The translations under genes were made by a program, and so were the position numbers. From an uncultured Leptolyngbyaceae cyanobacterium (GTDB lineage: Bacteria; Cyanobacteriota; Cyanobacteriia; Leptolyngbyales; Leptolyngbyaceae), in the NCBI GenBank assembly GCA_938023035.1, contig CALIDI010000011.1, positions 1 to 64,000 of the forward strand: a DNA stretch of 64,000 bases. Reading direction: 5' to 3'. This document shows, one piece after another, positions 546 through 34,204 of the stretch (the first letter of the stretch is position 1; each line of letters starts with the position of its first letter). A model generated the notes under the pieces. It worked only from the letters and a program-made list of their open reading frames with translations. It was not told the DNA's origin and made no database searches.

Positions 546-2366
546 TCAGAAGGAAAAGGGATTGATCACAATCGAGAAATAGATACCCTGTTCTTGCAGA
601 GTATTTTTACTGCCTGAAATGGATGTTAGAGGAATGCCATAGTCCAGTCGTGCTGTAATGCTATTCCCCAATTGAAATCTTAGCCCTGCGCCAATGCCTG
701 CTAAAAGTTGCTGCTCTGGGTTGACTCTGCCGGAAAGGTTCCAACCATAACCAAGGTCGATGAAGGGGGTCAGTTGCAATAGGCCCTTGATTTTGGGTAA
801 GCGCAGGATGGGGATCCGCACTTCGGCAGAGAGCAAGGCTCCGTCGTCGGTTAATAGGGTGTCTTGACGGTAGCCTCTAACAGTGTTGTTACCACCTAAA
901 CCAAATTGTTCAAAGGGGAGCAGGGTGCGACTGGCCAACTGCAAATCGCCTCGCACGAGTAAGAGGGTTTCAGGAGCGAGTAGGCGTACCCACTGAGCCT
1001 GTCCCCGCCAAGCCAGAAAGCGACTATCTGGAGGTTTATCATTAAGCGTGGCATTAAATGCTCCTAGCCCCAGGCTAAACTGCGATCGCAGTGCAATTAC
1101 CTCAGTACTACTACGCCATACCGCTTCTTGAAAAAAGCGTAGGGCAGAGAGCCGGGTTGTACCGTCATCATCCGATCCGATGGCTGGAAAGGGCAGATCC
1201 CCATCAAAAAGAGTAGCATTGCTAAAACGGCGAGTAAAGGTTAACCCAAGAGCCAGTTCACGACTGGGGGTTTGCACAATGGGTTGACGAAAGGTGGCTT
1301 CAAAATAGCGCGATCGCGCGTCAATGTCTAAGACGTTAAAGGGGGCTTCTATTACGTTGCTCTTGGATGTGCCGAAGCTGAAACTGACGGTGCTATTATG
1401 AGGGCTAATGGGGATTGTATAGCCCACGTCCAGAGTATCACTGCCCTGGGTATTGGTATAACCTAAGCTAATGCGATCGCCATAGCCGAGAAAATTATTG
1501 TGAATGATTTGGGCCTGTCGTCGAAACGTACCAGCACTCGGCGATCGGCTATTATCCAAAGTGATTGGAGTGGCCAAAGCCGGTGCTTCTGTGACCTGAA
1601 CCTCCAGCAAACTTTCACCAGGACGGGCACCTGCTGACAATTCAGCAGATACTGATTGTAAGAGCGGATCGAGTTGTAGAAGCTGTAATGCCTCCAGCAA
1701 TCGTTCTCGGTTGAGGGGTTTCCCTGTTTTCAAGCCAATGCGACTAGAGATATAACCGGGTTTAAGACGGCGCGTTCCGGTGACACGAATCGCTTCTAAT
1801 TGCCCTTCAACAACGCGAATTTCTACTGCCCCCCCCTCTAATTTCTGGGGCGGGATGAAGGCTCCAGATGTAATGTAACCCCGCTCAATGTAGAGTTGAG
1901 TCACGGCAGAGCGGGCCTGAAATAGCTCGGCAAGCGTAATTGGACGCTTAGTAAACGGTTGAGTGACGGCGGCTAATTCTGCCTCAGTAAAGACGGTGCT
2001 ACCAGTAACATTAAAACGCTCGACGACAATGGATTGCGGCTCATCTGGAAGCGGTTCAGTCGGCGTTGGCACCGGTTGCACAGGCGGAACCAACTCCTCC
2101 GGGGGTGGAATTGGCGTGATCTCTGAGGGAGGCTGAGCTGAAGGTGGCTGAATATCTCGTGGTAACGTGCTTGGCGGGAGTACTTGGGCGATCCGGTCAG
2201 CGCTCGCTTGGGGCAATGGCTGAGACGGATGAGAACGCGCCCCAAAGCTGCCTGACTCACTCACAACGGTAGCCTGCGCCATCATTCCCAGCCAGGTTAG
2301 CACGAAGGTATTGCCAAGGCAAAGGGTAACACCAAACTTAAGAGTCAACAGACTGTTGATGTTCAA
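546..2366 (-). CDS. TpsB-type outer-membrane transporter (ShlB/FhaC/HecB family)
   Basis: A 606-residue protein that should form an outer-membrane beta barrel and export a large partner (TpsA) by two-partner secretion. An N-terminal hydrophobic segment (about 5-32) acts as signal peptide. A proline-rich linker (about 45-110) follows, then a POTRA_2 domain (about 113-195, with VTGSTVFTEAEL and RGYITSGAFIPPQ) and the ShlB barrel (about 265-606). The barrel contains the family's VRGY motif near residue 500. The chain ends in Phe, as expected for a BAM-recognised barrel. Length is normal. No TpsA gene is visible nearby, so the substrate is unknown or lies left of the window. The ATG start is supported by the signal peptide. 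Confidence 0.92.
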   Translation of the reverse strand: MNINSLLTLKFGVTLCLGNTFVLTWLGMMAQATVVSESGSFGARSHPSQPLPQASADRIAQVLPPSTLPRDIQPPSAQPPSEITPIPPPEELVPPVQPVPTPTEPLPDEPQSIVVERFNVTGSTVFTEAELAAVTQPFTKRPITLAELFQARSAVTQLYIERGYITSGAFIPPQKLEGGAVEIRVVEGQLEAIRVTGTRRLKPGYISSRIGLKTGKPLNRERLLEALQLLQLDPLLQSVSAELSAGARPGESLLEVQVTEAPALATPITLDNSRSPSAGTFRRQAQIIHNNFLGYGDRISLGYTNTQGSDTLDVGYTIPISPHNSTVSFSFGTSKSNVIEAPFNVLDIDARSRYFEATFRQPIVQTPSRELALGLTFTRRFSNATLFDGDLPFPAIGSDDDGTTRLSALRFFQEAVWRSSTEVIALRSQFSLGLGAFNATLNDKPPDSRFLAWRGQAQWVRLLAPETLLLVRGDLQLASRTLLPFEQFGLGGNNTVRGYRQDTLLTDDGALLSAEVRIPILRLPKIKGLLQLTPFIDLGYGWNLSGRVNPEQQLLAGIGAGLRFQLGNSITARLDYGIPLTSISGSKNTLQEQGIYFSIVINPFSF

Positions 2367-23114: not shown

Positions 23115-23792
23115 CTAACCACATATATTCTTGACTAACGTGTTGAGTTCAAGCTTGAGTTCTTCAGAGGGTGCATCGACCCCATAGGCCTCTTGCAACA
23201 TATCCGCCCAGAGTTGGCGTTGGGCGAAATAGTCAGCACGTTGCCGGGTAATTTCTTCGCGACTGGCATTTTGAGCGGTGAGCCGCTGTTCTAGTACCTG
23301 TAAGTCAGCAGTAATCGGGGCACGATCGCGATCTGCCATCACTTGAAATCGGATCGGATCCATTCGCAGGGGGATTGACGGAGTAATAAAAAGCAGCCAT
23401 TCATAGGTCTGCCCCGCTTGGAGTGGCTCTCCGTCGTAACGTAGGCGCTGCAACTTTTCGGCTCCTGGGGATGCCGTTTGTTTGAAGAGAACTCCACCCT
23501 TACTAGCCTGCCGCACCGCCATGACCCGGCGATCGCCCCGCCAGACAAAAACAGGGCGCGTATTCCACAAAGGCTGACCGGGTTTTGGCGTGATTAGACA
23601 AGCCCCATCTCTCGTTCCACCCTCGCCTTTTTTTCCAGGATCTTTGCGGTTTAACCAGGATTGGAAAATAGTGTGCCAGGAGTAAGGGCGAGCTGCGGCT
23701 GGATCTGGTGATCCAGAATGCAGCCCAACCTGTAAACCCATCATGAGACCTGCAACTAGCAGACGTTGGAATGAACAAGCAAAACTAGCCAT
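23115..23792 (-). CDS. DUF928-like exported protein of CHAT cassette
   Basis: 225 residues from the ATG at 23792-23790, which overlaps the stop of the CHAT-CHASE2 gene by eight bases, pointing to translational coupling. A longer frame to 23885 lies inside that gene and is not preferred. There is a signal peptide (FQRLLVAGLMMGLQVGLHSG). The mature part contains GGTRDGACLITPKPGQPLWN, then RPVFVWRGD, then LQAGQTYEWLLF. This arrangement recalls the cyanobacterial DUF928 family often found beside CHASE2/CHAT genes. A helical C-terminus follows. Probably the periplasmic component of the cassette. Confidence 0.72.
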   Translation of the reverse strand: MASFACSFQRLLVAGLMMGLQVGLHSGSPDPAAARPYSWHTIFQSWLNRKDPGKKGEGGTRDGACLITPKPGQPLWNTRPVFVWRGDRRVMAVRQASKGGVLFKQTASPGAEKLQRLRYDGEPLQAGQTYEWLLFITPSIPLRMDPIRFQVMADRDRAPITADLQVLEQRLTAQNASREEITRQRADYFAQRQLWADMLQEAYGVDAPSEELKLELNTLVKNICG

Positions 23793-26211
23793 GACTTCTC
23801 CTAAAGATAGGGGGCAAAACGTAAATGCAAGTGACAACTGAGGGGAGCACAACTGGTAGCAATAGCTTCCCATGTTGATAGACAAGTAGACTCAAACTGG
23901 CATAGCCAGCCATCAATCCTAAAAATGTTAGGAAGATAAAGTATCGGCAATGCCGCATCATCAATAGAGAAAAACCTTTGCCAAGCACTGCGGCGAGGGG
24001 CATCATCCATAAATCTGGAATGGGGATAATCAGATGTTGCGTTAAAAAATGATGGGTCATATAGGCATGCACCTCGCCCCCCGTCAATTGACTTAAACTT
24101 CCGGGTTGCTTGAGTGCACTGCGCCACTGAGAAATGGCAGGCGGCAGGGGAAAATTATCGGCTCCATCCCCAGCAATGCCCGCTTCATCATAACCACCCG
24201 CAGCGAGGATGACAATCGTCGATCGCAAAGAGTCCCGATTGCGCGATCGCAGCCAATCTTCGCCCTCTTCTAAAAGTTGCCAGGCCGGTAACGTCTCATA
24301 AACCTGTGAGGGGGCAAGAGAGAAGTCAAGAATGGGTTGCAGCCAGCGTTGATGGATCCAATAGGAAAGTACTGTAATGGGCTGCAAGTATATCTTGCGA
24401 CGGGTCAATGGCTGGAAAGCCGGTTGATTGATCACGTCACTCAACTGGCTTTGGAGAGACTCTGTGCTTTGCAAGCTCGGTTGAAGCGGTATTAAACGCT
24501 CAAAAGAATAAGGTGCTCGTTGGGTCATCTGCTGAGCGATCGCCAGTTGGTAAGCAAAAGAATTGGGTGATTGATCTCGCCGGTCAATTGGCTTGATATG
24601 CCAGAGGGGAAACTCAATGTCTCCTTTTAAGCACCAAGATGACTTGGCAATATCTTCCAAAACGCTAAACCAATGGCCATCTTTTTGGCGCGCTGCAAAC
24701 ACAAACCAGGTTTGTTGCTGCTCGACGGCCTGCTCTAAAACTTCCCGTAGTTGAGGATCATGGGATTGAGGGCGATCAAAGAGATAGTCAATCCCAATGA
24801 CCTGTGCCTCAAGTTGGGTTAGGCGCTCGATTAGCCGGGCAAGGACGCTCCGATCCATGGGCTTGACCTGTTGGATTTTTAGCTTCTGAATTGATCGATC
24901 ATCAATCTGCACCAGCACAACCGGCGGCACCACTTGTGGATTTGTTTCACTCACTTGGCGGTGAATCGCCTGTACCCACAGGCGCTGCTCTAGCAACCAG
25001 GCTTGAACTGAGGGCAATCCTCCGATTACGAGCAGTAGCGCCAGGCTGATTGCCTCCCGTTTGGTCGGTCGCCATTGCTGCAACCGCTGCTGCCAACGAA
25101 AGGGTTTGGGGCAAAAGAGGGGCGCTTCGGGGTGGCGAAACAGAGAGGGTACCAGATAAGCCGAGGGATAGGTTAAATGCTTTTCGAGTTTCAGGTATTG
25201 CCCAGCAGCTAAGAGCGCTTCTTGCACATCCTTTAACTCCGCTAGGCTCCGCACAAAGCGCAGCAAAAACTCCTGGGCAACCTGATTATGAATCGGCTCT
25301 CGCATCACTGCCACCTGGTTAAACCCCAGATTGATCAAGTGCTGGGCAATGCTCAAACCACTACAGGAATTAAAAATTGCAAACTGCAAGCCGTTTTCCT
25401 TGGCGATCGCCAGATAGCGCGCTAACTCTTGCAATAGCATCGACTCATTGGGCGCGATCGCCAACTCTCCCCCCGTCAAGACGGCTTCATTGCTATGGCC
25501 CGCAAAAAACAAAATATCCCAACCGTTCGGATCAGCGATCGCCTGTGCAATATTTGTGCGGAGCACTGTCGTATCCATACCCGGTTGCCAGCCGACAAAG
25601 TGAATTTCGGCCATCCGCTGTAGTGCTTTCACCGCCACGCGATCCTGATGAAAATCCAAACCGGTTTCATCGCCAAGAATTGCAAGAATGCGCATGCGCC
25701 CCTGGCGAGAACGAGTCACTGGCTCCCTTTGAATGGTACTAGGCGTGCGACTCAGGCGGATAGGTTTCGTTGCAGCAAACTCTGTGCCAATCTCCCACAC
25801 TTCCCAGGGGAGGCGCATTAACTCCGCCGTATCACAGGTGAGAAAAACATCTACTGCTGTCACAGACCGATCAGGATGAGCCGCGGCTTGGGCGATCGCC
25901 TTACGGATATTCAGCAGTTCAGCACTATTAAGCCAATGGTGAAATTCGGATAAGAGCTGAGCCTCAGCCTCTACCAGTTTCTTCCGCCAATCAATCGGGG
26001 GAGCCACAAGCGTCCCGCTCCAGGAGGTACGCGCCCGAAGAGACGACTGATAAAAATTGAAGTAAGCCTGCTGCCAAGTTTGGTATAGATGGGTCAGCGT
26101 GTGAGGATAGGTCACCTGAGCCGTCAGTTGCTGCCCCTGCCCCCAGGTGAGATCGAACAGGCACGTTTGCCCAATGAGCCAAGTTTTGAGACGAAAAGAA
26201 ACAGTCAGCAT
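23785..26211 (-). CDS. CHAT-CHASE2 membrane protein (caspase-like domain plus extracytoplasmic sensor)
   Basis: 808 residues. The N-terminal half carries a CHAT caspase-like protease domain, with the catalytic His in ILFFAGHSN (about 239) and the Cys in FAIFNSCSGLSIAQ (about 283). A membrane helix (about 385-405) leads into a CHASE2 domain (about 410-710) with VLVQIDDRSIQKL, GIDYLFDRPQ and STIVILAAGGYDEAG. Three closing membrane helices fill about 720-805. CHASE2 is an extracytoplasmic ligand-sensing domain, so this looks like a one-protein receptor with a cytosolic protease head. Third in the cassette, 138 bases after DUF1822 and overlapping the DUF928-like gene. Confidence 0.92.
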   Translation of the reverse strand: MLTVSFRLKTWLIGQTCLFDLTWGQGQQLTAQVTYPHTLTHLYQTWQQAYFNFYQSSLRARTSWSGTLVAPPIDWRKKLVEAEAQLLSEFHHWLNSAELLNIRKAIAQAAAHPDRSVTAVDVFLTCDTAELMRLPWEVWEIGTEFAATKPIRLSRTPSTIQREPVTRSRQGRMRILAILGDETGLDFHQDRVAVKALQRMAEIHFVGWQPGMDTTVLRTNIAQAIADPNGWDILFFAGHSNEAVLTGGELAIAPNESMLLQELARYLAIAKENGLQFAIFNSCSGLSIAQHLINLGFNQVAVMREPIHNQVAQEFLLRFVRSLAELKDVQEALLAAGQYLKLEKHLTYPSAYLVPSLFRHPEAPLFCPKPFRWQQRLQQWRPTKREAISLALLLVIGGLPSVQAWLLEQRLWVQAIHRQVSETNPQVVPPVVLVQIDDRSIQKLKIQQVKPMDRSVLARLIERLTQLEAQVIGIDYLFDRPQSHDPQLREVLEQAVEQQQTWFVFAARQKDGHWFSVLEDIAKSSWCLKGDIEFPLWHIKPIDRRDQSPNSFAYQLAIAQQMTQRAPYSFERLIPLQPSLQSTESLQSQLSDVINQPAFQPLTRRKIYLQPITVLSYWIHQRWLQPILDFSLAPSQVYETLPAWQLLEEGEDWLRSRNRDSLRSTIVILAAGGYDEAGIAGDGADNFPLPPAISQWRSALKQPGSLSQLTGGEVHAYMTHHFLTQHLIIPIPDLWMMPLAAVLGKGFSLLMMRHCRYFIFLTFLGLMAGYASLSLLVYQHGKLLLPVVLPSVVTCIYVLPPIFRRSHG

Positions 26212-26349
26212 ACTTAAAAGCAGCGATTTAGCGTTAGCCGGAGCCAGTTATTTTCAAAATAGAACGACAGCGTACCCAGGATGGGTTGACTCGTGCCTCT
26301 TTAAAGGAAAAACATAAAGGGGGGGGTGCGATTGGCGATTTCCTCACCG

Positions 26350-27519
26350 CTACTCAGTCGGGAACCCAAAGGGAGGTAAGGTTAACGCGGCTCCATCGAG
26401 TAAGCTAATCGTAGCGATGAAGCTTTCATCTCGGTTACCCATAACCTGAGCAATGAGGAAATTGGCATCGGTTGCCGCTTGCAAGCGCTGCTCCACTACA
26501 ATTTCGGTGGCTGTTCTCACCAGCAAAGTCGTCTCTGCTGGCAGCGTGGCCCCTTGCTGCGCACCCAACAGCAATAGCAGCATCCATTCAGGGGGGTGAC
26601 CCGGTTCAAAAATCTCCCCTGAGACCGCATACAGTCGCAGCGGAATGGAGGCCATCATCCAATCGCGATAGGCGATGCCCACTTGCGATGGCAGCACGAC
26701 CCCCTGACGCGCCAGTTGGTAGAGTAGGGCTTCGGCTTCTTCCATTGGAGAGCGCGTCACTTCGGCGTCTGATGGGGAGGCGGCACCCGTTGAGAGGGAG
26801 ATTGGCATCCCCGTGGTGGAACGAAACCCAGGAGCAAGCGTGAGCGCAGGTAAAAGCACCCAGGCAAATTCTTGGGCGATCGCATCTAGTTGGTTTTGCA
26901 ACCATAGCTGAGCGTTAATCAGGGGTTGCCGCCGAGTCGATGCCGTTGTAGAGTCAGGGGAAGCCGCTGCCTCTACTAAAGGTATTGCCGTTGGGGATAA
27001 ACAGCGCAGGTATAGCAACAGGTGATCCGGATCGAGATCAAACCAAGCCAAGGGCAACGAGTAAGTGTGATCAACCTCCAGAGGTTGGGGTTGAGTTTGC
27101 CAATAGGTTTGTAAGTGGTCGTGGCGGAGAAAGCCATCGATCACTGCTTGCCCCTGTTCTTCATAAATGGAGACTAGCACGTAAAAATGCGCTGGATTTT
27201 CTGGAGCATCAATGATGGCGCGGGGAACTGAAACCAATGAATCGGGTGGACTCGCGATTGAAATAAAAGCAATCCGAAATTGATGGATAGTAAGTTGGCA
27301 AGTGGTCAGCATATGAACCGACTCAAAGGGCTGTGACCAACCGCGTTGACGCAGCCACTGCTCAAAGCCCTGCATCGCCAGAAAATCTAAGTAGGTTTGC
27401 CACCGTTGAGCGGGTTGGGGGCATTGATGACTCTGACCCATGGCGTAGTCAATCTGGACATCCGATAGGGCGATCACAGTCGCTGGGATTGGATCAAACT
27501 CAAGCATCAAATCATTCAT
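26350..27519 (-). CDS. DUF1822 family protein
   Basis: 389 residues, soluble. The N-terminal part (AQRWQTYLDFLAMQGFEQWL) and the pattern of Trp/Gln-rich text (RHDHLQTYWQTQPQPLEVDH, SLPLAWFDLDPDHLLLYLRC) are typical of DUF1822. This cyanobacterial family has no known function and is commonly encoded next to CHASE2/CHAT proteins and sigma-like proteins. The C-terminal region (AVSGEIFEPGHPPEWMLLLL) is family-like too. It sits 30 bases after the sigma-like gene, clearly in the same operon. It probably links the sigma-like factor to the membrane CHAT protein, but that is inference from context only. Confidence 0.85.
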   Translation of the reverse strand: MNDLMLEFDPIPATVIALSDVQIDYAMGQSHQCPQPAQRWQTYLDFLAMQGFEQWLRQRGWSQPFESVHMLTTCQLTIHQFRIAFISIASPPDSLVSVPRAIIDAPENPAHFYVLVSIYEEQGQAVIDGFLRHDHLQTYWQTQPQPLEVDHTYSLPLAWFDLDPDHLLLYLRCLSPTAIPLVEAAASPDSTTASTRRQPLINAQLWLQNQLDAIAQEFAWVLLPALTLAPGFRSTTGMPISLSTGAASPSDAEVTRSPMEEAEALLYQLARQGVVLPSQVGIAYRDWMMASIPLRLYAVSGEIFEPGHPPEWMLLLLLGAQQGATLPAETTLLVRTATEIVVEQRLQAATDANFLIAQVMGNRDESFIATISLLDGAALTLPPFGFPTE

Positions 27520-27549
27520 AGGAAACTCTCTCGATAGATCAGAAATAAC

Positions 27550-28869
27550 TTAATGAATAGAAGCGGGCAGTTGACGATCCAGATAATGGCAAAGGATGCG
27601 GGCAAAAAGACTCCTGACCACATAGCTCTTAGGACTTTTAGCATTAGCCTGCTCCTGTTGAATCACAGCATCAATCTGCGCTGCCAGAGCGACTTCGATT
27701 TGCTCGTCGAGTTGATTCAACTGTTCGGGAGCGGTATAGTCCGTTGCTTTATCCGTAATCACTTGTTTGAGATATTGCCATAGACAATGGCGGACATCAG
27801 CACGAAACTCTTTCAACTTCAGCAAGCGAGTGACTTGATACTGACCTTGTAAGCCGATCACCGGGGCGATCGCCGTCATCGATTCACCCTGACAATAAAA
27901 TAATTGCAGAGCCTGCAAAAACAGTTGAGCTTTGGCAGATTTTTGGGTTTTGACCCGCTGACCCACTACTTGAGCGAAGGCCATCTCCAGGCCGGTAAGC
28001 AACTGCTGTCGGTAAAATTGCAAAAAAACGGATTGTTCATCAGGTTCATTTAACCCATGGGTTGGTGCGTCATCGGCTAAGGGAAAAGCTTCTGGCTGAT
28101 GGAGGGACTGCCCCCGGGGGTTGCCTCCCCGCGAAGCAATGCGATACTGCCGCAGGCGATCAGCGAGGGCTTCGAGTTGGAGTTGCAGCGCTTGAAGCGT
28201 GTGACGCTGACCAGTTTGCGCTTGCATCCGTTGGCCGATCGCGTGTAACTGCGGCTCTGTGGGTGGGAGACACTTCCCCTTTTGCCGCTGTTGCAGGCGA
28301 TCGCGGCGATAAACAGCATGGTAGCTTTCTAGCAGAACCTGGACCTGAGTAACCTCGCGATCACTCATTTGATAAAACTGTTTGAGCACTCGTTGCAACT
28401 TGGGCAAACCCGTATCGTTTAAGAGCGCCCAATCACTCAACAGGCAGAGACCGCATTCTAAGAGAAAGGCATTTAACCCAGCATGACTTTTGACTAACCG
28501 CGCCACCCAAGTGGAAAGACTAGCTCGCTCTGGATCAAAGGATTGCAGAATTTTGAATGCCAGGGGTTGATAGCGGTTAGGGCTTGGGGATTCGCGAATA
28601 GAGAAGAAGGTTTTGCCATCATCATCCAACACAAAGGCAAAGAGATCTTGCCGCATCAAACCATAGTCATGGCCGTACCTTTTTTCTAGCCCGATGCAAA
28701 CCTGCTGAATTTGATGGGAGATAAAGCAACGGAGGCAGAGATTTGCTAGCATCCCATCTGGCCTATCTAATTGATCCCTAGCGATCGCCAGCAGTTGTTT
28801 CTGAATTTCTCTATCATCATCTATAGTTGAGCTTATTTTTTGCTGAAAAAATGCTTTAGCTGATGGCAC
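27550..28869 (-). CDS. Sigma-factor-like protein of CHAT cassette
   Basis: 439 residues from a GTG at 28869. Helical throughout. The N-terminal ~150 residues recall sigma region 2-type helices (ILQSFDPERASLSTWVARLV resembles the conserved ...W...v stretch of divergent sigma factors). The part around 330-370 (LQALQLFYCQGESMTAIAPV then LKLKEFRADVRHCLWQYLK) is compatible with a region 4 helix-turn-helix. Similar proteins are encoded before DUF1822 genes in other cyanobacteria, where they are annotated as sigma-70-like. DNA binding is unproven. Head of the four-gene cassette. Confidence 0.7.
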   Translation of the reverse strand: MPSAKAFFQQKISSTIDDDREIQKQLLAIARDQLDRPDGMLANLCLRCFISHQIQQVCIGLEKRYGHDYGLMRQDLFAFVLDDDGKTFFSIRESPSPNRYQPLAFKILQSFDPERASLSTWVARLVKSHAGLNAFLLECGLCLLSDWALLNDTGLPKLQRVLKQFYQMSDREVTQVQVLLESYHAVYRRDRLQQRQKGKCLPPTEPQLHAIGQRMQAQTGQRHTLQALQLQLEALADRLRQYRIASRGGNPRGQSLHQPEAFPLADDAPTHGLNEPDEQSVFLQFYRQQLLTGLEMAFAQVVGQRVKTQKSAKAQLFLQALQLFYCQGESMTAIAPVIGLQGQYQVTRLLKLKEFRADVRHCLWQYLKQVITDKATDYTAPEQLNQLDEQIEVALAAQIDAVIQQEQANAKSPKSYVVRSLFARILCHYLDRQLPASIH

Positions 28870-30384: not shown

Positions 30385-33300
30385 TCATAACCCATTCCCG
30401 ATCAAAATAAAGGGTGCCCAGTAGTGGGGATGGGTCAGCTTATCCCCTGTAATGCTTTGTCCGGTCTGTGCACTTTCTGGAATCAAATCAGAGCGCTTGC
30501 CCCCAACCGTTGTGTAATCACCAGTAATCAACGCTTTTTGCGCGGCCTGTATTGCTTTGGCCTTGGTCATCCCCTGCTTCAGCGCCCCATAAAAGGCATT
30601 CATTAATACTTGCGTGCCGCCATCATCCACCTTCCACAGCGAAGAAAGAGCAGCTCGTGAACCAGCCCGTTGCATCTGGTAGCCAAACCCCAGAATCTCA
30701 ATGCCATTACCGAGCTTACCGCCAATCGCCGTTTCACAAGCACTCAGTACAACCAGAGAAAGATTGGGAAATTTCCATTGCTGTTCAATTTCTCGTAAGG
30801 TAATAGCAGTCCCATCACCGAGCAGCATGATGGACTGGTCGGGGCTACCCGGCACAAACAGGCCATGGGTCGCAAGATGCAGAATGGTGGATTGGGGAAG
30901 ATTTTGATTGAGGTTGACCCGATTGAAGGTTTGATCCACTAAGGTTGTCGTGTCAGGCAGGATCTTGGCCAAATTGCTAATCTCAGGTTGGGTAAATTGC
31001 AATGCTGGAAATCGATGTGTTTTTCCTAACAAGGTGATTTGCTGCTCTCGGGTAAGCGCCGCTGCCAAAACACGCGATTGGGAATTTTGATCGGGTTCAA
31101 GAGGAGTCAGGGCAAGGGCTGTAAGGTAGTTAATTGGGTAGCGCTCCGCCAGCCACTGGGTGCCATCGTGCAGTGCCGCTAGGGGAACATAGCGCATAAT
31201 GCTATCAGGAGCATAGACAATGGTTTCTACCCCTGCGGCTTTAAGGTCACTTTCAAGAGGTTGAAACAGGGTCTGATAAAGTTTTTGGGCAGATGGTTGA
31301 ATTTGTGGCGATCGCGCTTCTAATTGCTGACGAAAGGCTCGAATTTCCGTTTCCAGTTGTTTAGCAGAAATGGCAACCGATTTGCGCACTGGCGGGCGAT
31401 CCTCAGTCAGGATGACCAGTTCTAGGCGATCGTCCAAAACTAAGGGATAAAAGAGCGCCACATCTTTGCCCAGCCTCTGGCGACGGGCTTGCAAATCTTG
31501 GTAGGCATTTAGCCTTCGATTCTGCTCAGCCGCCGTGCGTTGGAGGATTTGCACCTGGGTTTGAATCGTTGCATCCTGCAGCCGAGCATGCAGCGATACC
31601 TGAGAAGACGGGTTGATACTTGCCAAAATAGCTGTTTCTTGAGGCAAAAACTCTACGCCCTTAGCCGTGTGCTCATTTCCGTTTACATCTTTGAAGAAGT
31701 CTTGCAAGTCTTGCACCTTAAGCAAATCTAAAACCTGCATCGCTTCGATGATGCGATTCTGCTGAAGGAGGAGATCTGCCAGGTTACGGTAGGTTTTAGC
31801 CACAGAACCGGTATAAGAGACTTGCAGTTCACGAGGGAGCGCACGAATATCTTGCCGAATCGATTCACTCACATTGACGGCTTGTTTATAGAAAATAATA
31901 GCCAAATCGATTTGCCTTAGCTTTTCTAAAACAGAACCAATATCAGTAAAAGAAATTCTCTCACCCGCAAGACTTTTGATTTCCTGCTGAATTACAAGGC
32001 TTTTTTGGTAAGACTCTATCGCCTCAGGGTAATTACCAAAATCCCCATAAATACTTCCCAATGCGCTCAATGCAATTGCCTCGCCTGCCCGATCCTTAAT
32101 CCTTCGGTAAATTGCCAAACCTTGCTCGCGATACTCAAGTGCTTTTGTCTGATTACGAAGCGCGCTATAAACATTCCCAAGATTACCTAAGATACTGGCT
32201 TCTGTTTGCGAATCATTGATTGAGCGAGCAATCGCTAAACTTTTCTGGTAGTAGTCAATCGCTGTACTGTAGTTACCAAGTTTGTAATAAGCACTTCCCA
32301 GATAAGCCAGCATAGAACTATGTAACTGATGGGCACCTCGGAGTTTTGGCCCCTGGTGAGTCGGCAATCCTTGCTTATAATAACTAATCGCTTTAGGGTA
32401 ATCGCCCATATCATAGTAAGTATTTCCCAAATAAGATAATACGACAGCTTCTCTGAAGCGATTATTAAACTTCCTGATAATCGCTAGGCTCTTTTCATGA
32501 TATTCAATTGCTTTTGTATAACTACCCAGCTCACTATAGAGATTTCCCAAATCACTTAAAGCGTCAGCTTCCTCTAGAGTGTCTCTTTTCTTTTGTGCAA
32601 TCGCTAGCCGCTGCTCTATCTGTAGGAGGGCTTTAGAATAATTGCTAAGTGCTAGATTTGTATACACAACTCCTCTTGTATCAGATGCTGTAGTAGACGC
32701 ATCAGTAATCGCTAAAAGTCTTTCTCCATATTCCATTGCCTTGGAATAATTGCCGAGACTGCGATAGGTATTTCCTAGTCTTTCCAAAATGTCCACTGCA
32801 CTGAATCGACCCATAGGTAACTCTTGAGATCGACTTTGAATAACACGGTAAATCTGTAAAGCTTTTTCCCATGACTGAATCGCAGCTTCAAATTGATTGG
32901 CTTGCTCTTGCTGAATTCCCTGTTGCCATAGTCCAAAAGCACTACCTCTCAGAACACTATAAGTCTCTTCAAGGTTGCCGCGTGCATGGAAGATTAAGCT
33001 GTCATCTTTCAGTGCTTGGGCGAGTTGAACACCCTTTTCTTGTACTTCGATTGCTTTTGCCGCATCACCTGCTCGTAAGTAAACAAAGCCCAAATCACCT
33101 AAAGACAGAACTTCTTCAATGCGGTTGTTGCTTTTTCGATGAATTGCCAGGGTTTGCTCAACAGTAGAAATTGCCTTCGGATGGTTACCCGTCAGAGAAT
33201 AAATCAGTCCTAAACGCCTTAGTACTGCCAACTCAAGTGGCTGCTCTTTGATGGCTCGCGCGATCGCCAAGCTTTGCTCAGAATATTCAATCGCTTTAGC

Positions 33301-33636
33301 ATAGCTACGAAAAGCAAAATGGGCGCGCCCCAAACTTGCCAGTGCGTTTCCTTCACCCAAACGATGTTTAATTTTTTGATAAATCTGCAAAGCCTGCACT
33401 AAGGGTTGTAATGCTTTTTCAGGCTGTCTGGATTGAATCTGATCGATTCCCTGTTGTAGCAACTTATCGGCTTCTGCTTTGTAATCCGGCGTTGTCTGTG
33501 CGACTGCAACAGCATTCAATAAGAAAAAGGAAACATTAGCCGGAGCAGTTAGGGGAGCCGCCAGTAAGCCAACGGCGATCGACAAGAGGCAAAGGCTGAA
33601 CCACTGGCGTTGGCGATCAGCAAAGCGTTGACTCAT
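30385..33636 (-). CDS. Exported TPR-CHAT protein
   Basis: 1083 residues from the ATG at 33636, with AAGGA upstream. A further 19 in-frame residues lack a better start. There is a signal peptide (RQWFSLCLLSIAVGLLAAPL) and then about a dozen TPR units (about 50-620, repeated pattern such as ALGSIYGDFGNYPEAIESYQ and LGNTYYDMGDYPKAISYYKQ). A helical linker is followed by a C-terminal CHAT caspase-like domain (about 760-1080). Catalytic residues are visible: His in STILHLATHGLF (about 920) and Cys in VVLSACETAIGG (about 965). TPR-CHAT proteins are abundant in multicellular cyanobacteria and their substrates are mostly unknown. It is on the same strand as the CHAT-CHASE2 cassette but not in its operon. 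Confidence 0.93.
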   Translation of the reverse strand: MSQRFADRQRQWFSLCLLSIAVGLLAAPLTAPANVSFFLLNAVAVAQTTPDYKAEADKLLQQGIDQIQSRQPEKALQPLVQALQIYQKIKHRLGEGNALASLGRAHFAFRSYAKAIEYSEQSLAIARAIKEQPLELAVLRRLGLIYSLTGNHPKAISTVEQTLAIHRKSNNRIEEVLSLGDLGFVYLRAGDAAKAIEVQEKGVQLAQALKDDSLIFHARGNLEETYSVLRGSAFGLWQQGIQQEQANQFEAAIQSWEKALQIYRVIQSRSQELPMGRFSAVDILERLGNTYRSLGNYSKAMEYGERLLAITDASTTASDTRGVVYTNLALSNYSKALLQIEQRLAIAQKKRDTLEEADALSDLGNLYSELGSYTKAIEYHEKSLAIIRKFNNRFREAVVLSYLGNTYYDMGDYPKAISYYKQGLPTHQGPKLRGAHQLHSSMLAYLGSAYYKLGNYSTAIDYYQKSLAIARSINDSQTEASILGNLGNVYSALRNQTKALEYREQGLAIYRRIKDRAGEAIALSALGSIYGDFGNYPEAIESYQKSLVIQQEIKSLAGERISFTDIGSVLEKLRQIDLAIIFYKQAVNVSESIRQDIRALPRELQVSYTGSVAKTYRNLADLLLQQNRIIEAMQVLDLLKVQDLQDFFKDVNGNEHTAKGVEFLPQETAILASINPSSQVSLHARLQDATIQTQVQILQRTAAEQNRRLNAYQDLQARRQRLGKDVALFYPLVLDDRLELVILTEDRPPVRKSVAISAKQLETEIRAFRQQLEARSPQIQPSAQKLYQTLFQPLESDLKAAGVETIVYAPDSIMRYVPLAALHDGTQWLAERYPINYLTALALTPLEPDQNSQSRVLAAALTREQQITLLGKTHRFPALQFTQPEISNLAKILPDTTTLVDQTFNRVNLNQNLPQSTILHLATHGLFVPGSPDQSIMLLGDGTAITLREIEQQWKFPNLSLVVLSACETAIGGKLGNGIEILGFGYQMQRAGSRAALSSLWKVDDGGTQVLMNAFYGALKQGMTKAKAIQAAQKALITGDYTTVGGKRSDLIPESAQTGQSITGDKLTHPHYWAPFILIGNGL

Positions 33637-34204
33637 ATAGGCTTCCTTTTGATAGAAGTGAATACATGGATCGGTTTGGTTCCTCTGCCCCATCGCCCTA
33701 TCGAAATCCTAGGAAGGCTACAGAGCATGGTCAAATCACTGCACAGTCAAATTGCTCAGACAAGTCGTTAGGAGTGCGGAGTAAATAAACCCAAAAGCCT
33801 AAAACTCTAACCGGGAGCGACCAAGCAATACCTTTGTATCCTCTGTATCTCTGGGGTAAAGCTTTAGGCGATAAGATACGAGGCGTTGTCTAACGCAGGG
33901 ATAAATTGCCCTCATCCCCTTTCTTTGAATACCCGTCAGGGGTGTACCCCTCTCCCATTGGAAACGAGAGATTCTGTGCTCTCTCTGTAGGAGAGGGCGA
34001 GAATGAGGGCGAATGGGGTAATTCCTGTCCAGGCGACATCAGATACCCTGGTGAACCGAATCACCAAGAGCCTCTCCGCCAAGCCCAAACTCAAACCCAG
34101 ACTGAAGAGGCTTTTGGAGAGACTTTTCAGACACACTGACATCCCTTGCCCAGATGGCATAGAGCATTCAGAATTTGCTTTGTGTCCTCTGGGACTGGCC
34201 CGTT
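33637..34204. other. Gap between TPR-CHAT and M48 genes, with a family 3 repeat
   Basis: Leader of the TPR-CHAT gene at the left, family 3 repeat at 33908-34034, nothing else recognisable. Confidence 0.5.
33908..34034 (-). repeat. MITE-like repeat (family 3), copy 2
   Basis: The right end GAGGGCGAATGGGGTAATTC then CTGTCCAGGCGAC is the reverse complement of the family 3 end at 43479. The left part contains CCCTCATCCCC and CCCCTCTCCCATTGG. Confidence 0.55.

Follow-up and report, generated by a model that had tools for sequence, protein, structure and literature searches.

A cyanobacterial CHAT-CHASE2 cassette with a sigma-like protein, DUF1822 and a DUF928-like partner: a candidate proteolysis-gated sigma-factor switch

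Described systems and the layout of the cassette

Filamentous cyanobacteria are rich in CHAT/caspase-like proteins, most of which, to our knowledge, have neither a known substrate nor a known output. In regulation of the RseA/RsiW type, an envelope signal leads proteases acting in series to cut a membrane-crossing anti-sigma factor and an ECF sigma factor is freed. The closest described class was predicted from sequence by Kaur, Iyer, Burroughs and Aravind (2021, eLife; PMC8195603). It has a constant N-terminal domain and a caspase, followed by a variable C-terminus that includes CHASE2, and its authors favoured activation as an autopeptidase. Most of the neighbourhoods without TRADD-N had an ECF sigma factor and DUF1822 beside the caspase (PMC8195603). 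In type III-E systems, the CHAT protease Csx29 cuts Csx30, and only intact Csx30 inhibits CASP-sigma (PMC10028731). The Anabaena CHAT protein HetF is reported to be able to cleave the regulator PatU3 (PMC12288457, citing Xing 2022). For the sigma factors of group ECF54, protease control without an anti-sigma factor has been proposed (PMC8999054).

We analyzed a stretch of 64,000 nucleotides from an uncultured Leptolyngbyaceae cyanobacterium (the window). Four co-directional genes lie on its minus strand, from 28869 down to 23115, in the order sigma-like, DUF1822, CHAT-CHASE2 and DUF928-like, and their ORFs were confirmed. They are spaced by 30 bp, 138 bp and −8 bp, the 8-bp overlap holding if the DUF928-like gene starts at ATG 23792. 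This ORF was listed as 23885-23115; ATG 23792 is preceded by an AGGAG-type ribosome site and is probably the true start. Both the tight gene order and the four-gene content of the initial annotation were retained, with Pfam matches for DUF1822, CHAT and CHASE2, a sigma identity taken from the family, and a DUF928 match below threshold. The features recognized were:

27550..28869, minus strand: predicted sigma-70-family (ECF-like) protein of a long-linker divergent subfamily, 439 aa, GTG start
28450..28761, minus strand: sigma region-2-like part, ~residues 37-140 (profile columns 65-145 against sigmaF; boundaries approximate)
27745..27939, minus strand: sigma region-4-like HTH, ~residues 311-375 (profile columns 298-353 against sigmaF and FliA; HTH in the model)
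26350..27519, minus strand: DUF1822 protein, 389 aa, proposed to restrain sigma and to be cut by the protease (Pfam E 2e-36)
26980..27477, minus strand: DUF1822 N-terminal alpha/beta domain, residues 15-180 (model)
26380..26748, minus strand: DUF1822 C-terminal beta-sandwich, residues 258-380 (model)
23785..26211, minus strand: CHAT caspase-like protease, transmembrane segment, CHASE2 and C-terminal transmembrane segments, 808 aa (Pfam matches over cut-off)
25867..26211, minus strand: constant N-terminal domain of the caspase, EACC2-like (position and conservation)
25495..25497, minus strand: codon of the predicted catalytic His239 (AGHS; His in 65/69 relatives)
25363..25365, minus strand: codon of the predicted catalytic Cys283 (NSCSG; Cys in 65/69 relatives)
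24988..25056, minus strand: first transmembrane segment, ~residues 386-408 (hydropathy)
23992..25035, minus strand: CHASE2 domain, residues 393-740 (Pfam PF05226, E 3e-20)
23800..23949, minus strand: C-terminal transmembrane segments, ~residues 755-804 (hydropathy)
23115..23792, minus strand: DUF928-like protein with hydrophobic N-terminus, predicted to be exported, 225 aa from the ATG

The cassette is a well-populated case of the kind predicted in 2021. With the EACC2-caspase/ECF sigma/DUF1822 system it shares the constant N-terminus, the His-Cys caspase, the variable C-terminus and the adjacent DUF1822. The adjacent ECF sigma factor is found here at the family level, the window member being sub-threshold. 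The window cassette has a DUF928-like gene, and DUF928 is absent from the text of Kaur et al. (PMC8195603). To what we found described before, the present analysis adds DUF928 as a likely partner, linked to CHASE2 in general, the exchange pattern of one versus 27 changes, a fusion of the DUF1822 N-domain to zf-HC2, and a DUF1822 model without TPR.

To assess the conservation of the neighbourhood, we used two partly overlapping samples, with some genomes in both: 120 loci from the phylum, with genes labelled by profiles built from the window proteins, and 80 loci from named cyanobacterial genomes, picked by the sigma gene alone. In 75/80 named loci DUF1822 was found directly or closely after the sigma gene. 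CHAT-CHASE2 was present in 48/80, 43 of these 48 also had DUF928, and the identical 8-bp overlap occurred in 21 of the 43 by our own count. Of 82 DUF1822 genes picked independently of the sigma search, 77 had a long or short (~205–300 aa) sigma gene directly upstream. Hosts of the cassette include Calothrix, Nostoc, Hydrococcus, Leptolyngbya and Nodosilinea, among them Calothrix sp. NIES-3974 and Nodosilinea nodulosa PCC 7104. Many genomes repeat this gene order, down to the 8-bp overlap, which puts the arrangement far beyond chance. The survey proposed in the initial annotation thus returned a strongly conserved neighbourhood. An adjacent CHAT protease was missing from ~40% of the DUF1822 loci (48/116, some cut by contig ends), so that there DUF1822 must act, or be cut, without a protease nearby.

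The sigma-like protein and DUF1822

The sigma-likeness of the first gene is invisible from the window protein alone (TIGR02937, 12 bits, E 0.11). At the same gene position, the TIGR02937 sigma70-ECF model was matched by 42/65 family members, with a best E-value of 7e-33, and the CAS_III-E sigma model by 16/65. The family profile matched sigmaF (1l0o, E 4e-9) across regions 2 and 4, and also SigF and FliA. Motifs of both regions are conserved in the long subfamily, and the motif FDPE..sLsTW in the region-2-like part of the window subfamily. For the AlphaFold model (pLDDT 89), the best Foldseek match was B. subtilis SigD (probability 0.97, E 0.017), our interpretation of an entry labelled 'RPSD' with 254 residues. 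Sigma-A chains filled most of the next ranks, none of them individually significant. From family profile and model, we conclude that the first gene encodes a member of the sigma-70 superfamily, from a long divergent branch, with predicted sigma activity. The structure prediction, suggested beforehand to check the annotated sigma-like identity, agreed with the family profile in pointing to regions 2 and 4; the protein’s own sequence added only the 12 bits.

In the long-linker subfamily the model places a loop of low confidence (residues 253–274) between regions 2 and 4, and a short ECF form (~210 aa) with the same partners lacks the long linker. A search of the sequences ahead of the operons yielded no motif for a sigma-dependent promoter. 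A motif upstream of the short sigma genes, CAACT-N14-GTCA, had an ECF-like look but was coding sequence just inside the gene, an artefact and the only result of the search; motifs preceding the long type were set aside as probably dominated by close orthologues. Four cysteines (C48, C58, C326 and C427 of the window protein) were invariant in 19 sequences of the long family (alignment A3), and a metal or redox role for them is possible.

DUF1822 was recognized with a Pfam score of 126 bits (cut-off 25). In its model (pLDDT 87), the N-terminal domain was well predicted, and a low-confidence loop (residues 231–256) preceding the beta-sandwich is a candidate cleavage region. A conserved Arg before this loop (R-S/G motif) was considered but is no evidence for a cleavage site, being kept also without an adjacent caspase. 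Kaur et al. label DUF1822, as a non-defining feature, a TPR protein (PMC8195603), whereas the window-protein model has an alpha/beta domain and a beta-sandwich and no TPR; for the window member the label looks wrong. No significant structural match to the model was found, including to any anti-sigma factor, and PDB searches gave no match with Csx30. Matches to MHC chains were ignored as chance.

We mapped the sigma and caspase states on a tree of 115 DUF1822 proteins and compared them with shuffles. The sigma type (long or short) changed once, versus 22–28 times in the shuffles, and the caspase state (CHASE2, other or none) 27 times, versus 43–59. One sigma change against 27 caspase changes indicates joint inheritance of sigma and DUF1822, with exchange of the sensor. 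This pattern is as expected for a C-terminus that senses, a caspase that relays and a sigma-DUF1822 pair that forms the output.

In a sister class outside the window class (L173–L177, L258–L277; families f31 and f39), long proteins with open frames of mostly 770–1300 aa begin with the DUF1822 N-domain. This class was found once per genome in 25/25 genomes checked. Directly after the N-domain, a zf-HC2 finger, of a type known from anti-sigma factors, was detectable in 5/25 genomes, in two of them over the cut-off. A transmembrane segment followed the N-domain in L177. No sigma gene adjoined the zf-HC2 type in the three loci read (L173–L175). Co-inheritance with sigma and the zf-HC2 fusion in the sister class favour DUF1822 as a sigma-restraining cleavage target, and make a sigma-restraining role our best guess for this protein. 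In some DUF1822 subfamilies (L072, L082, L085 and L087), long HEAT-repeat-like insertions between the two DUF1822 domains were seen by eye in the alignment.

The caspase, its CHASE2 sensor and DUF928

The third gene gave a CHAT match with a Pfam E-value of 8e-8. The two catalytic residues of the initial annotation, His ~239 and Cys ~283, were exact in position and conserved in 65/69 relatives, and proteolytic activity on a partner is predicted from this dyad. Judged by its position, the N-terminal domain would correspond to the EACC2 of Kaur et al. (PMC8195603), and its residues W46, Y50 and W93 are conserved across the caspases whatever their C-terminus. On the same caspase, other C-termini were a periplasmic binding protein, nSTAND1 NTPase, WD40, TPR, HEAT and PsbP-like domains. 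Against the HetF model of NCBIfam (NF045509, cut-off 1200), the window caspase scored only 22 bits. A separate CHASE2 match in the same genome (G000:C18:642-1607) had 11 in-frame stops and is likely a pseudogene.

The window protein reached only 18.8 bits (E 0.0014) with DUF928 (PF06051), below the Pfam cut-off of 26. We name it DUF928-like because its subfamily is homologous by profile–profile comparison to the over-threshold DUF928 subfamily (hhalign probability 97%, E 4e-11). This match, together with the hydrophobic N-terminus, sustains the annotated exported DUF928-like protein. Its pairing with CHASE2, also part of that annotation, gained statistical support in two ways. Within the cassettes, DUF928 followed 28/39 caspases of the CHASE2 type versus 3/24 of the others (p 5e-6, an optimistic value, as the genomes are related). 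Outside the cassettes, in nine genomes, a CHASE2 gene was found within 2.5 kb of 28/49 DUF928 genes, where 0.6 were expected and the largest of 5000 random trials gave 4. Ten CHASE2 partners of DUF928 had diguanylate cyclase, SpoIIE phosphatase, guanylate cyclase or histidine kinase outputs, with none recognized in three. Given these mixed outputs, what DUF928 tracks is the CHASE2 ectodomain rather than any one output. DUF928 is thus likely a periplasmic partner of CHASE2, with putative binding. In the literature searched, DUF928 was mentioned in a single paper, which noted one Nostoc cluster with a CHASE2 gene (PMC5587647). The link to CHASE2 gives DUF928 a first likely role, as a periplasmic sensor partner.

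In the nine cyanobacterial genomes, DUF928-CHASE2 clusters with many output types often contained exported TPR-CHAT proteins (examples are L153–L156, L160, L161, L163, L164, L166, L169 and L172). Near DUF928 in the cassettes, exported TPR-CHAT proteins were not significantly enriched (p 0.1), with a strict pattern that misses the window’s own copy. This copy, a probably exported TPR-CHAT protein (30385-33693, minus strand; CHAT E 3.5e-61), is upstream of the cassette, and a 177-aa probably exported protein lies between the two. The window also encodes a ShlB/FhaC-type two-partner secretion transporter (546-2366, minus strand). In related loci (L069, L131, L145 and L154), genes that are FHA-like by eye stood beside DUF928.

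The proposed switch and its alternatives

We propose that the cassette is a proteolysis-gated sigma-factor switch, a reading to which we give a probability of about one half. CHASE2, outside the cytoplasmic membrane, would sense a signal from the envelope or the surroundings, probably with the aid of the exported DUF928-like protein, and the signal would cross the membrane to the cytoplasmic CHAT protease. DUF1822 would bind and restrain the sigma-like protein; once activated, CHAT would cut DUF1822, and the freed sigma-like protein would redirect RNA polymerase. A sensor-to-protease-to-sigma switch is well supported by the predicted anatomy. We infer the protease activity, the role of DUF1822 as an anti-sigma-like substrate, the direction of control, and the target genes. 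The protease-controlled transcription switch of the initial annotation keeps its support from this anatomy and from the conserved neighbourhood, but the architecture itself had already been predicted (PMC8195603).

Two systems are precedents for the mechanism, neither of which identifies the substrate here. Craspase (Csx29, a TPR-CHAT protein, with Csx30 and CASP-sigma) likewise combines a CHAT protease with an ECF sigma factor at a single locus. It has a cleavable inhibitor, Csx30, a counterpart role proposed here for DUF1822; its trigger is a guide RNA, whereas in the window system it would be CHASE2. No gRAMP/Cas7-11 or Csx30 gene was found among the four genes or their annotated neighbours, and the cassette has no CRISPR genes. 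HetF is similarly a cyanobacterial membrane CHAT protein reported to be able to cut a regulator (PMC12288457); unlike the window caspase, it has TPR repeats and no CHASE2. With RseA/RsiW the proposed switch would have in common an envelope signal, a protease and a freed ECF sigma factor. There, however, the cleaved protein spans the membrane, whereas in the cassette the role of transmembrane receptor would fall to the protease.

More tentatively, DUF1822 could represent a novel family of anti-sigma proteins that proteases cleave, and the system a widespread cyanobacterial, non-CRISPR counterpart of Csx29-Csx30-CASP-sigma. The same reading, with the same reserve, would have one caspase chassis with exchangeable sensors and one sigma-DUF1822 core, with DUF928 as the signal-binding subunit of the CHASE2 version. 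If true, DUF928 would play this signal-binding role also for CHASE2 kinases, cyclases and phosphatases. The constant sigma-DUF1822 core offers a direct handle on CHAT/caspase-like proteins, with one cleavage candidate and one transcription factor to follow.

Alternatively, the caspase might process itself or cut the sigma-like protein in its long, disordered linker (residues 253–274), with DUF1822 as an adaptor docking sigma to the protease. The low-confidence loop between regions 2 and 4 would offer a cleavage region, Kaur et al. favoured autopeptidase activation (PMC8195603), and ECF54 is a proposed case of protease control without an anti-sigma factor (PMC8999054). We regard this as unlikely, given that the short ECF form has the same partners and no linker, and that sigma-DUF1822 pairs exist without an adjacent caspase. 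Quite unlikely is a conflict or cell-death system, in which activated CHAT would cause death or arrest of the cell and the sigma-like protein would switch on defence. A role in immunity or apoptosis was proposed for related caspase systems that have TRADD-N partners (PMC8195603), and the versions with nSTAND, WD40 or TPR look like sensors used in defence. From CHASE2 and from periplasmic binding proteins, however, sensing of small molecules or the envelope state is expected and not of phage, the sigma-DUF1822 core is co-inherited, some genomes hold six or seven DUF1822 copies, and no mobile element or toxic effector was noted among the four genes. A sigma-derived DNA-binding or scaffold protein, with an output other than promoter selection, would suit the 12 bits of the window member and the non-significant Foldseek E-values, but is equally improbable, as the subfamily keeps the motifs of regions 2 and 4 and clear sigma factors occupy the same gene position in homologues.

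A second DUF1822 gene was found in the same genome as the cassette (G000:C5:10815-11729; L001, L053). Directly upstream was a short ECF-like gene of 212 aa, with a sub-threshold match to Pfam Sigma70_r2 (E 0.0018), and there was no caspase among the flanking genes of this pair. In small-genome cyanobacteria (1.7 Mb; L128 and L129, family f19), a minimal sigma-DUF1822-like pair had a 4- or 8-bp overlap, its DUF1822-like member in one genome (G165, L129) being missed by the Pfam DUF1822 model.
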